Assembly (NCBI GenBank): GCA_022709545.1
Contig: JAKLIP010000001.1
Coordinates: forward strand, 186,001 to 250,000
Origin: Patescibacteria group bacterium
Lineage (GTDB): Bacteria; Patescibacteriota; Minisyncoccia; Moranbacterales; GWC2-37-73
Direction of reading: 5' to 3'
Length of the DNA: 64,000 nt
A program made the translations under genes and the position numbers. The notes beneath the pieces are model-generated. The model worked only from the letters and a program-made list of their open reading frames with translations. It made no database searches and was not told the origin of the DNA. The number at the start of each line of letters is the position of its first letter. The first letter of the stretch is position 1. Shown piece after piece: positions 52,889 to 62,338 of this stretch.

Positions 52889-52915
52889 TTAGCACTCAGA
52901 CTTGACGACTGCTAA
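52889..52915 (+). promoter_or_regulatory. CIRCE operator (HrcA binding site) at hrcA
   Basis: TTAGCACTC (52889-52897), nine bases, then GACTGCTAA (52907-52915). Consensus is TTAGCACTC-N9-GAGTGCTAA, so there is one mismatch. It overlaps the -35 of the hrcA promoter, as expected for autorepression. Confidence 0.9.
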
Positions 52916-52939: not shown

Positions 52940-53683
52940 ATGAATATCAGGCAACAAAAAATATTATCAGCCGTAATAGAAGAATATACGAAAACTGCTG
53001 TGCCGGCCGGTTCGCAAATTTTGGCAAGCAAATATCGTTTTAATGTCAGTCCGGCAACACTCAGAAATGATATGATGTCTTTAGAAAAAGAAGGTTATCT
53101 TTATCAGCCGCATATCAGCGCGGGCAGAATCCCGACTGACAAAGGCTATCGTTTTTTTGTCGAGGAAATAATGAAGGATAAAGAACTTTCTAAAGAAGAA
53201 CAGCACAAATTACAGCGTGAATTTTTAAAACTGAAAGCTCAAAATACTAGACTGACAAAAACATCGGCCAAACTGCTTTCTCATCTCAGTGGCAATCTGG
53301 CTATTAGTGGATTAATTGATAATGATGAATTTGCCGATTTTGGAATGAGAGAATTAATGGAAGAGCCCGAATTTCAGGATTTAGATGATATGTGCCGTTT
53401 AGTTGAAACCTTGGACTATGTGGACGAAAAATTTGATAAATTGATGAAAAACATAAAATACGGAGAAACTAAGATTTTTATCGGAAAGGAAAATCCGATC
53501 GAAGGAATTAATAATTGTTCTATGATGGTTTCGCCATATAAATTAAAAACTGGAGAAAAAGGAATCTTGGCGCTGATTGGACCAAAAAGAATGAAATATG
53601 CCAAAAACAAATCAATGATGGAATATATGAAAAAGTTATTAGGAGCCTCAATGGTTGTAGTAATTTTTGTAAATATAATATAA
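52940..53683 (+). CDS. hrcA: Heat-inducible transcription repressor HrcA
   Basis: Repressor that binds CIRCE and turns off chaperone genes when not stressed. The winged-helix N-terminus has MNIRQQKILSAVIEEY, TLRNDMMSLEKEGYLYQPH and SAGRIPTDKGYRFFV. The C-terminal GAF-like domain is present but short. The whole protein is 247 aa against about 340 usually, so the inserted dimerisation domain is reduced. It carries its own CIRCE-covered promoter and heads the unit hrcA-(Nudix-grpE)-dnaK. Confidence 0.93.
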   Translation: MNIRQQKILSAVIEEYTKTAVPAGSQILASKYRFNVSPATLRNDMMSLEKEGYLYQPHISAGRIPTDKGYRFFVEEIMKDKELSKEEQHKLQREFLKLKAQNTRLTKTSAKLLSHLSGNLAISGLIDNDEFADFGMRELMEEPEFQDLDDMCRLVETLDYVDEKFDKLMKNIKYGETKIFIGKENPIEGINNCSMMVSPYKLKTGEKGILALIGPKRMKYAKNKSMMEYMKKLLGASMVVVIFVNII

Positions 53684-53687
53684 AAAT

Positions 53688-54569
53688 ATGACAGATAAAA
53701 AACAAAAAAGCAATGAAAAAAAATATCCCGAAGCTATTGTTGGCGCATTGATAATAAACAGTAAAGAAGAAATACTTTTAGGAGAAAGTAAGAAATGGAA
53801 AGGAAAATGGACTGTTTTTGGCGGACATGTGGAATTAGGAGAAAAAACGGAAGAAGCAATAGCAAGGGAGATAAAAGAAGAAACAGGGTTGGATGTAAAA
53901 GTTGAAGCCCAGCTGGATTTTTCAGAAAGTATTTTTGATAAGGATTTTCATGAAGAAAAACATTTTATTTTCCTTGACTATGTATGTAGATATGAAGGAG
54001 ATGAAAAGGTTAAAGTTAATGGAGAATTTAAAAAAGATGGATACAAATGGCTAACCATTGAAGAAGCAAAAAAAATGAATTTAGCAGTGGGAACTGAGCA
54101 AGCAATTGAAAAATATTCAAAATATAAAGAACAAAAAAGTTTTTTAGACGGCTGGAAGCGTTGTCAGGCAGATTTTGAGAATTACAAGAAAATGCAGGCA
54201 GAATCGCAGAAAGAATTTATGAAATATGTCGGACAGAATATTGTTATGCAGATTATTCCAGTATTGGACAATTTTCATATGTCTACCGATCATATTCCGG
54301 AAGATCAGAAAGATAACGCCTGGGTAGTTGGCATAATGCATATTCAGAAACAACTGGAAAATGTTCTGATAGAAAACGGGGTTGAAGAAATTCTGACCAA
54401 AGAAGGAGATAAATTTGATCCAGCAATACATGAAGCAATACAAGACAGCAGTCAGGAAAAAGGGGAGAGAAAACAAGAAGAAATTAAGGGAATAATTAAA
54501 AAAATCACATTTAAAGGATATAAATTAAACGGGAAAGTTTTGAGGGCAGTAAAAGTAATAGTTGAATAA
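53688..54569 (+). CDS. grpE: Nudix hydrolase-GrpE fusion protein
   Basis: Two-domain protein in the slot where grpE normally lies. Residues about 12-145 are a Nudix domain with a perfect Nudix box: G46-x5-E52-x7-R60-E61-I-K-E64-E65-T-G67-L. Residues about 150-293 are GrpE: FLDGWKRCQADFENYKK, IIPVLDNFHMS, then GVEEILTKEGDKFDP, HEAIQ and the beta-domain end GYKLNGKVLRAVKVIV. The GrpE part is about 144 residues, so most of the disordered N-terminus and long paired helix that normally precede it are missing. GrpE releases ADP from DnaK. The Nudix substrate is unknown. No stop or frameshift separates the domains. Confidence 0.92.
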   Translation: MTDKKQKSNEKKYPEAIVGALIINSKEEILLGESKKWKGKWTVFGGHVELGEKTEEAIAREIKEETGLDVKVEAQLDFSESIFDKDFHEEKHFIFLDYVCRYEGDEKVKVNGEFKKDGYKWLTIEEAKKMNLAVGTEQAIEKYSKYKEQKSFLDGWKRCQADFENYKKMQAESQKEFMKYVGQNIVMQIIPVLDNFHMSTDHIPEDQKDNAWVVGIMHIQKQLENVLIENGVEEILTKEGDKFDPAIHEAIQDSSQEKGERKQEEIKGIIKKITFKGYKLNGKVLRAVKVIVE

Positions 54570-54641: not shown

Positions 54642-56558
54642 ATGAGTAAGATATTGGGAATCGATTTAGGCACAACCAACAGCGCCATGGCTGTCGTCAT
54701 GGGCGGCAAGCCGGAAATTATTGAAAACAAGGAGGGTAACAGAACAACTCCTTCCATGGTTGCAATTTCTAAGGCTAATGAAAGATTGGTCGGGCTTTTG
54801 GCTAAACGCCAAGGCGTAACCAATCCGGGAAACACTTTGTTTTCAATTAAAAGGCTCATTGGGCGTTCATATAATGACGCTGAGGTTCAGCGCGATGTGA
54901 AGCTCATGCCATATAAAATTGTGCATGCGGGAGAAACTGTGAAAATTACCATGGGAGATAAAGACTATACTCCTCAGGAAATTTCTGCCATGATTCTGCA
55001 GAAACTTAAACAGGATGCAGAAGAAAAACTGGGCGAGAAAATTACTGACGCGGTCATCACAGTTCCTGCCTATTTTGACGACTCACAAAGAAAAGCCACC
55101 AAAGAAGCTGGAGAAATCGCAGGCTTCAATGTGCGCCGAATTATCAATGAACCGACAGCGGCAGCTTTGGCTTATGGTTTTGACAAAAAAGCTGACGAAA
55201 AAATTGCTGTTTATGATCTTGGAGGCGGGACTTTTGATATTTCAGTTCTGGAAGTAGGCGGCGACACAGTGGAAGTGAAATCAACCAACGGCGACACCCA
55301 TCTTGGGGGAGACGATTTTGATCAGAGAATAATTGAATGGATTATAAATGAATTCAAAAAACAGGAAGGCATTGATCTTTCCAAGGATCCTTTAGCTCTT
55401 CAAAGAATCAAGGAAGCCGGAGAAAAAGCCAAGATTGAACTTTCAACTTCCATGGAAACCGAAATCAATCAGCCTTTCATTACATCCGATTCATCCGGTC
55501 CGAAACATTTGGTTATGAAAATGACCAGAGCGAAACTGGAAGAATTGGTTGGGGATTTAGTTGAAAAAACCTTAGGTCCGGTCAAGAAAGCCTTGGAAGA
55601 TGCAAAACTTTCCGCCAAGGATATCAATGAAGTTGTTTTGGTCGGAGGAATGACCAGGATGCCATTAGTTCTTCAGACTGTAGAAAAATTCTTTGGCAAG
55701 AAACCAAACATAACAGTGAACCCTGATGAAGTTGTGGCGCTCGGTGCTGCGATACAGGGAGGCGTTTTGGAAGGTTCAGTCAAAGATGTGCTACTCCTTG
55801 ATGTGACGCCTCTGACGCTTGGAATTGAGACTATGGGAGGCATTTCAACTCCGCTTATAGACCGCAACACAACCGTCCCAACAGCCAAATCACAAGTATT
55901 TTCAACTGCCGCTGACAATCAGCCAAGTGTTGAAATCCATGTCTTGCAAGGCGAACGCGAAGTAGCTTCTGGCAACAAAACTCTGGGCAGATTTATTCTG
56001 GATGGTATTCCACCAGCTCCAAGAGGCATTCCGCAGATTGAAGTGACATTTGATATTGATGCCAATGGAATTTTGAATGTAACCGCCAAAGACAAGGCTA
56101 CTGGCAAATCACAATCAATCAAAATTGAAGCTTCAAGTGGACTTTCCAAAGATGAAATTGAAAAAATGAAGAAAGATGCCGAGATGCATGCGGAAGAAGA
56201 CAAGAAGAAAAAAGAATTGGTTGAAGCCCGCAATCTGGCCGACACACTTGTTTATACAACCAAAAAAGCTTTGGCTGATGCCGGCGACAAAATCACAGCC
56301 GATGAAAAGAAGCCGGTTGAAGATGCTATTGCAGAATTGGATAAAGTAAAGAACGGCGATGATCTGGATGCCATTAAGGCCAAAACCGAAGCGCTTTCCC
56401 AAACCGCACAGAAGATTGGGGAGAAATTATACAAAGCCGCGCAAGAGGCGCAGGCTGCCCAGGGTGGACAGGCAAGTCCAGAAGGCGAAAAGAAAGATGA
56501 TAATGTAAAAGACGCCGAAGTGGAGTCTGATAAAAAAGATGAGACAGAGAAAAAATAA
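54642..56558 (+). CDS. dnaK: Chaperone DnaK (Hsp70)
   Basis: ATP-dependent chaperone. The actin-like ATPase domain has [41 protein letters not shown] and [10 protein letters not shown]. The [11 protein letters not shown] linker and substrate-binding domain follow, then a Lys/Glu-rich lid ending in an acidic DKKDETEKK tail. The 638-aa length is typical. It is the third gene of the hrcA operon, 72 bases after the Nudix-grpE gene, and is closed by a strong terminator. Its codon use is GC-richer than that of neighbouring genes, as expected of a highly expressed gene. Confidence 0.98.
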
Positions 56559-61156: not shown

Positions 61157-61183
61157 TTAGCACTCTTAATATGGGATTGCTAA
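61157..61183 (+). promoter_or_regulatory. CIRCE operator at dnaJ
   Basis: TTAGCACTC (61157-61165), nine bases, then GATTGCTAA (61175-61183). One mismatch to CIRCE. Its right half contains the -35 (TTGCTA at 61177-61182) of a promoter whose -10 is TAAAAT at 61200-61205 (17-base spacing). Confidence 0.9.
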
Positions 61184-61228: not shown

Positions 61229-62338
61229 ATGGCTAACTATTATGAAATTCTAGGTGTCAACAAGAGTGCTTCTGATGATGAAATAAAGAAAGCATATCGA
61301 AGGCTGGCTCATAAATATCATCCTGACAAACAGGGTGGTGATGCTGATAAATTTAAAGAGGTAAACGAGGCCTATCAGGTACTTTCCGACAAAACTAAAC
61401 GCCAGCAATATGATCAATTTGGTCAAACTTTTGATCAAAGTAGGCGTGCAGGGCAGGGAGGATTCAGTGGCTTCGAAGGCTTTGATTTTTCTGGATTTCA
61501 GCAAGGATTTAACGGACAAGGCTTTGAATTTAATGGGGGGTTCGAAGATATATTTTCTGATATTTTTGGCGATAATTTTAGCAGGAGTCGTAGACAATCT
61601 TCTCATAAGACGGGCAGGGATATCCAGATTGATGTGGAAATAAAATTTGAAGAAATTGTAACCGGAGCAAAAAGGGAAGTTTCTTTGCTGAGAAATGTGG
61701 TTTGCGACGTTTGTCGCGGCACTGGAGGTGAACCAGGAATAAAAGAAGAAACCTGCCCGACATGCAAAGGCAGCGGGCAAGTCAAGAAAGTTACTCGTAG
61801 TTTTTTTGGATCATTCCAGCAAGTTTCCACCTGTCCTACTTGTGAAGGAGCAGGCAAGATATATTCAAAGAAATGTCATAAATGTGGTGGCGACGGAAGA
61901 GTCCGAGAAAAACAGAATATTAGCATAGAAATTCCAGCCGGAATTGCCGATGGGCAAACAATCTCATTACAAGGATATGGTGAGGCTGGAGAAAGAGGTG
62001 CTAGAAGTGGAGATCTTTATGTAACTGTTCATGTAAAACCACATGATGAATTTCAACGCAAAGGTAGTAATATATTTTCAACTGAGCATATATTATTTTC
62101 ACAGGCAGTTCTTGGAGATAAGATAAACGTTAAAACTATTAAAGGCCCGGTTACTATTAAAATACCAAGTGGAACCCAATCAGGTGAAATTTTCCGCATA
62201 AAAGGACAAGGAGTGCCTCAATTAGGTCGTGACTACATTAAAGGTGATCATATGGTTACCATTATTGTAGACATTCCAAAAGCTACCACAAAAGAGCAGA
62301 AAAGGGCTATTGAAGATTTGAAAAAATACGGAATTTAA
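61229..62338 (+). CDS. dnaJ: Chaperone DnaJ (Hsp40)
   Basis: Co-chaperone that stimulates DnaK ATPase and delivers substrates. It has a J domain ([20 protein letters not shown], with HPD in KYHPDKQ), a G/F-rich region ([18 protein letters not shown]), four CxxCxGxG-type zinc repeats ([32 protein letters not shown]), and the C-terminal beta-domains. The 369-aa length is typical. It is separate from dnaK by about 4.7 kb but shares HrcA control through its own CIRCE. Confidence 0.97.

Follow-up and report, generated by a model that had tools for sequence, protein, structure and literature searches.

A Nudix–GrpE Fusion in the hrcA–dnaK Operon of Patescibacteria, with a Nudix Domain That Has Apparently Been Swapped Repeatedly

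The heat-shock operon of a patescibacterial genome carries a grpE gene in which a Nudix hydrolase domain is fused ahead of GrpE. We find that this architecture is widespread and modular, beyond a single genome, that its Nudix domains have been swapped, that their catalytic residues are conserved, and that a CIRCE site precedes the operon. The GrpE and Nudix families are both known, and the fusion is a new variant of GrpE, not a new kind of protein. At about even odds (roughly 0.5), we read it as a two-function heat-shock co-chaperone, that is, an active Nudix hydrolase which GrpE docks onto DnaK. What is surprising is how far the fusion has spread, that swapping has recurred at a single boundary, and that most of the domains exchanged there have to do with nucleotides.

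Results

The Fusion Gene and Its Operon

The fusion gene occupies positions 53688..54569 on the forward strand of the window (the whole stretch of 64,000 nucleotides that was analysed) and forms a single frame of 293 aa, from ATG to stop and without interruption. The earlier note had read in it a Nudix domain with a perfect Nudix box followed by GrpE, and both domains indeed score above the curated Pfam cut-offs: NUDIX matches residues 17-136 (E = 2.7e-20, 73.2 bits vs. a cut-off of 21.1) and GrpE (PF01025) matches residues 138-292 (E = 8.1e-30, 104.1 bits vs. 25.8). From the Pfam match, the AF2 fold and the tree, the Nudix hydrolase domain is placed at residues 13-133 (53724..54086, +) and assigned to lineage B (see below). 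The Nudix box GHVELGEKTEEAIAREIKEETGL, running from G46 to L68 (53823..53891, +), fits the pattern GX5EX7REX2EEXG[ILV] (PF00293) in full. The retained GrpE domain, according to Pfam, alignments and AF2, comprises residues 154-293 (54147..54566, +) with the DnaK-contact helix, the bundle helix and the beta domain. No second GrpE was found in the rest of the source genome (1.02 Mb, 98% complete). An internal start that would yield a free GrpE (the Met in KKMNLAVG) is not supported, because this Met varies in the nearest relatives.

The gene lies inside the hrcA–dnaK operon, as had been proposed, in the order CIRCE, hrcA, Nudix-grpE and dnaK. The CIRCE element, the operator of HrcA (52889..52915, +; TTAGCACTC-N9-GAGTGCTAA, 1 mismatch), stands 24 bp upstream of the heat-shock repressor gene hrcA (52940..53683, +; 247 aa), which was assigned by position and sequence and whose product is 88.7% identical in the sister genome G005. 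The end of hrcA at 53683 is 4 nt upstream of the fusion gene, and dnaK (54642..56558, +; 638 aa, its product 94.7% identical to that of G005 over the first 300 residues) starts at 54642, 72 nt downstream of it. This setting is common to the relatives, where hrcA lies directly upstream of 69 of the 70 fused genes and dnaK downstream of 64. At three or fewer mismatches, 2 CIRCE matches were observed in the window against 0.03 expected by chance. Because the operon carries this operator, heat stress probably induces the hydrolase along with DnaK and GrpE. The second CIRCE element (61157..61183, +; 1 mismatch) lies directly upstream of dnaJ (61229..62338, +; 369 aa, with the J domain and the CxxCxGxG repeats read from sequence), and dnaJ therefore probably belongs to the HrcA regulon, though it is outside the dnaK operon.

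Distribution of the Fusion and an Empty Site in a Sister Genome

To see how far the two-domain architecture extends among related genomes, a search that the earlier note had proposed, we surveyed 131 genomes of the Candidatus Moranbacteria order (Patescibacteria), whose members are uncultured bacteria of very small size; 118 of these genomes have a GrpE match. Nudix–GrpE, counted as an end-to-end match to a two-domain profile, is present in 56 of these 118 genomes. It is found in all members of two families (f9, 8/8; f11, 8/8), in most of a third (f5, 13/15) and in some genomes of f10, f7 and f4; in the source genome's own family (f1), 17 of the 18 genomes are unfused and bear a short, mostly acidic GrpE tail. 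In a draw from the whole phylum (380 genomes, E ≤ 1e-40), the fusion turned up in three genomes only, G000 and, from another class, G369 and G419. A survey of 286 genomes of that patescibacterial class gave 11 matches from end to end, and several of these stand alongside unfused members of the same family. No relatives were found among the viral contigs searched. The earlier note knew of no described Nudix–GrpE architecture; our literature search likewise found no paper on such a protein, and automatic domain-architecture listings (InterPro) may already list it.

The nearest relative by GrpE, G005, shares 72% identity in GrpE, 89% in HrcA and 95% in the first 300 residues of DnaK. The DNA of the two genomes is about 79% similar up to the end of hrcA and the left edge of the Nudix block, and the similarity returns at 80% from about codon 155; the block itself (53691..54149, +, from the DNA comparison) has no counterpart in G005. 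G005 thus offers a clean empty-site comparison, which argues against contamination. A contamination figure of 9.6% is listed for the source bin, but the fusion gene sits on a 378-kb contig, and HrcA, GrpE and DnaK all match this sister of the same family. Moreover, the recurrence of the same two-domain frame in 56 genomes of the order excludes a frameshift artefact, and with it a stop or frameshift between residues 145 and 150, which the earlier note had considered. These comparative data refute an assembly artefact or contamination, to which we give a negligible chance.

Exchange of the Nudix Domain

The GrpE tree broadly tracks the families, whereas the Nudix tree does not. In the latter, the order's fused domains fall into three lineages: A, with 29 domains and one unfused gene; B, with 7; and C, with 20 and the long branch of G104. 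Each lineage is drawn from several families. Lineage B consists of the domains of G000, G028, G039, G103, G036 and G072 and the second Nudix domain of G077, and its carriers stand at seven separate places in the GrpE tree, each of which is required by branches with good support. When the tips are scored as no fusion, A, B, C or nucleotidyltransferase, 24 changes are needed on this tree. Monophyly of the carriers in GrpE is rejected for all three lineages (A, P = 3.0e-29; B, P = 1.3e-63; C, P = 1.6e-6, AU test; the groups were named after the Nudix tree had been seen, and there are only 145 columns in the GrpE alignment), so that a single vertically inherited fusion is rejected. One common origin of all fused Nudix domains is not rejected (P = 0.13, AU test), and the best tree joins those of the other class, with two degenerate ones excluded, to lineage B at moderate support (82/72). 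These results indicate, as far as the trees can tell, that the Nudix module has been exchanged many times between species and independently of the GrpE half.

Several loci bear on how the module moves. In G077 (L053/L160; L053:3866-5200), GrpE is preceded by two Nudix domains in tandem, one of A type and one of B type, in a protein of 445 aa, and this arrangement is likely an intermediate of replacement. In a pair of the same genus, G056 and G050, the Nudix block is mostly 50-60% identical and the flanks mostly 75-90%. G105 bears a separate grpE and a lone lineage-A Nudix gene (L169) whose C-terminal residues YLQMQNFSDGRRK resemble the junction, and it is possible that the lone gene is a relic of fission. 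The low synonymous divergence of the Nudix part between G053 and G110 had also been considered as a sign of transfer; this argument was dropped because the C-terminal part of GrpE is unusually divergent in this pair and the flanks match each other as closely as the Nudix part does.

Predicted Structure at the Junction

In an AF2 monomer model (50-sequence alignment; mean pLDDT 89.8, pTM 0.66), the protein is predicted to consist of a Nudix fold, one unbroken helix over residues 134-201 (54087..54290, +; block pLDDT 90-97), in which the C-terminal helix of Nudix passes into the long helix of GrpE, the bundle helix at 211-229 and the strands of the beta domain between 232 and 292. The unbroken helix carries W156, R158, K167 and K168. 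R158 is invariant in A1 and A2 and aligns with residue 64 of Mycobacterium tuberculosis GrpE, an arginine that touches both DnaK domains (PMC10803776). By this alignment, the junction lies just ahead of the DnaK-contact segment. The fusion residue 150 aligns with residue 56 of Escherichia coli GrpE; the replaced portion is the disordered tail and, if the E. coli helix starts near residue 40, about 16 residues of the helix, with the C-terminal helix of Nudix filling in. The claim that Nudix replaces the N-terminal disordered part of GrpE therefore stands, whereas the claim that it also replaces most of the paired helix does not, given the unbroken helix in the model; the DnaK-contact part of the paired helix appears to be retained and lengthened by the Nudix helix.

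The residues ahead of the Nudix domain, about 13 in number, contain no hydrophobic triplet, that is, no motif like the DnaK-binding IIM. Among 41 unfused relatives, such a triplet is present in only 8, and it is outside the Pfam definition of GrpE. In E. coli, the disordered tail of GrpE binds the substrate site of DnaK and promotes release, and its removal abolishes the effect (PMC12915176, PMC10803776). The fusion protein thus resembles GrpE of E. coli and M. tuberculosis in its long helix with a conserved DnaK-contact residue, its bundle helix, its beta domain and its gene next to dnaK, but where these have a disordered tail that binds the substrate-binding domain of DnaK, it has a Nudix domain, which also supplies the first turns of the long helix.

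Catalytic Residues and Candidate Substrates

The catalytic REx2EE of the Nudix box is exact in 63 of the 68 fused Nudix domains; two have D for E, and the site is lost in three (G031, G687 and G745). Where measurable, dN/dS is 0.07-0.31 in the Nudix part vs. 0.05-0.21 in GrpE, by simple Nei–Gojobori counts in which several pairs are near saturation at synonymous sites. Both the retention of REx2EE and these ratios favor the view that the catalytic function of the fused Nudix domain is kept.

The best PDB matches of the Nudix domain in Foldseek are the Thermus Ap6A hydrolase structures 1vc9 and 1vc8 (TM 0.84, target-normalised), and among the next ones are a Rickettsia MutT-type enzyme, the Aquifex Ap4A hydrolase 3i7u, NudI and AtNUDX1; in score, the MutT-type enzyme, NudI and AtNUDX1 are about level with the ApnA hydrolases. 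The scores shown for the NCBIfam equivalogs, which define substrate subfamilies, are all below cut-off. The domain is thus like these Nudix hydrolases (Thermus Ndx1 for Ap6A, the Aquifex Ap4A hydrolase, NudI and the MutT/AtNUDX1 type; PF00293) in its fold and complete Nudix box, and unlike them in being joined to GrpE by a continuous helix, in lying in a heat-shock operon and in matching none of the substrate subfamilies shown at cut-off. Heat shock raises the level of Ap4A, which is a ligand of DnaK, GroEL and ClpB and a substrate of Nudix enzymes (reviewed in PMC10148737). For these reasons, a dinucleoside polyphosphate of the ApnA type, such as Ap4A, is perhaps the best single guess for a substrate, at odds that are clearly against it. 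(p)ppGpp may be another candidate among the stress nucleotides. The presence of a RelA/SpoT homologue was considered as a test of a link to (p)ppGpp and is uninformative, being near-universal in the order (118 of 124 genomes).

Discussion

Possible Role of the Nudix–GrpE Protein

In the two-function co-chaperone that we consider about as probable as all else together, the C-terminal half would serve as the cell's only GrpE, the nucleotide exchange factor of DnaK, and the N-terminal half would be a Nudix hydrolase whose active site is complete, set in place of the disordered tail and running into the long helix. A GrpE dimer would then carry a pair of Nudix domains on the tips of its helices, next to the substrate-binding domain of DnaK, and the hydrolase would be produced with DnaK and GrpE in heat stress through CIRCE. 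The most likely role of such a protein would be to bring a Nudix activity to DnaK, clearing or sensing a nucleotide made under stress. We infer the dimer geometry, the enzyme activity, the place next to the substrate-binding domain, the substrate and the regulatory meaning from the features above, and the link between DnaK nucleotide exchange and a stress nucleotide or alarmone, which the earlier note had drawn, is suggested by them only indirectly. Several points stand against this reading: neither fold nor sequence reveals the substrate of a Nudix enzyme, three domains have lost their catalytic residues, about half of the order's genomes (17 of 18 in the source genome's own family) lack the fusion, and other domains occur at the same place.

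Some of these points speak for a structural role, in which a folded and perhaps dimerising or heat-sensing Nudix domain caps the long helix in the tail's stead and alters substrate release by DnaK or how GrpE responds to temperature, while its catalytic activity is incidental. The same place is held by domains as varied as three Nudix lineages, a nucleotidyltransferase-like domain and DUF1653, and the tail that they replace normally acts on the substrate-binding domain and on release. Against it stand an active site that is exact in nearly all of the fused domains, purifying selection on the Nudix region and, in the nucleotidyltransferase-like domain, an intact GS...DxD motif; we regard a purely structural role as doubtful. 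It is also conceivable, if rather improbable, that the two halves are independent and merely expressed together, with a housekeeping Nudix enzyme (e.g., a sanitiser of damaged nucleotides) placed under CIRCE. The heat-shock operon, the coming and going of the fusion among close relatives and the case of G105, where the halves can part, are all consistent with this, but a separate gene in the operon would suffice for such a purpose, and yet the join is held at one helix boundary by three Nudix lineages and in two classes. The same genomes, moreover, have further Nudix genes that are unfused. The fusion has a partial parallel in the PilZ–DnaK chaperones CsdK1 and CsdK2 of Myxococcus xanthus (PMC10313047), in which a domain linked to nucleotide signalling is likewise joined to a component of the Hsp70 machinery; there, PilZ is on DnaK and the signalling is by c-di-GMP, whereas here a hydrolase is on GrpE.

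GrpE is usually seen as a uniform accessory of DnaK, and here it carries its own, repeatedly swapped Nudix domain with catalytic residues intact. The meaning of the binding of Ap4A to DnaK has been a question since cross-linking work in 1991 (reviewed in PMC10148737), and Nudix–GrpE makes it testable in one protein. A GrpE without its tail also puts current models of substrate release to the test, and modules are exchanged here inside a gene of reduced genomes, exactly at a helix boundary.

Other Domains and Inserts at the GrpE N-Terminus

A nucleotidyltransferase-like domain precedes GrpE in the three genomes G023, G029 and G047; the loci of this architecture are L073:3509-4435, L077:3455-4414 and L079:3171-4148. 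One of the three proteins matches Pfam NTP_transf_2 below cut-off (E = 0.004), GS...DxD is intact in all of them, and the remote structural matches of the predicted domain, with weak E-values, are MenT1, tRNA-processing nucleotidyltransferases and JHP933. In the other class, a DUF1653-like domain is found on GrpE of G721 (Pfam E = 3e-23) and, by similarity, of G485 and G621. G639 encodes DUF1653–Nudix–GrpE; the DUF1653–GrpE loci are L219, L227, L228 and L230, with Nudix in between in L219. These arrangements allow the tentative proposal, to which we would give somewhat less than an even chance, that the N-terminus of patescibacterial GrpE is a socket for exchangeable, mostly nucleotide-processing domains (the three Nudix lineages and the nucleotidyltransferase-like domain) and for DUF1653, alone or combined. 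Such modules would pass from species to species as cassettes, without regard to the GrpE half, and would couple the substrate-binding end of the DnaK cycle to stress nucleotides, for instance Ap4A or (p)ppGpp.

The GrpE tails of the unfused members of the source genome's family (L013, L014, L018, L021 and L029) often have the motif EEEIVVEQ or a similar one, which is perhaps the counterpart of the DnaK-binding motif IIM of E. coli. Palindromic elements of about 35-75 nt, with predicted hairpins of -18 to -36 kcal/mol (coding, e.g., PARNASHSDAGG), are also present in frame within grpE of relatives (L029, L030, L046, L078, L171 and L012). Their place is the tail and, for L029 and L046, just ahead of the last beta strands. 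These inserts recall the palindromic elements of Rickettsia.
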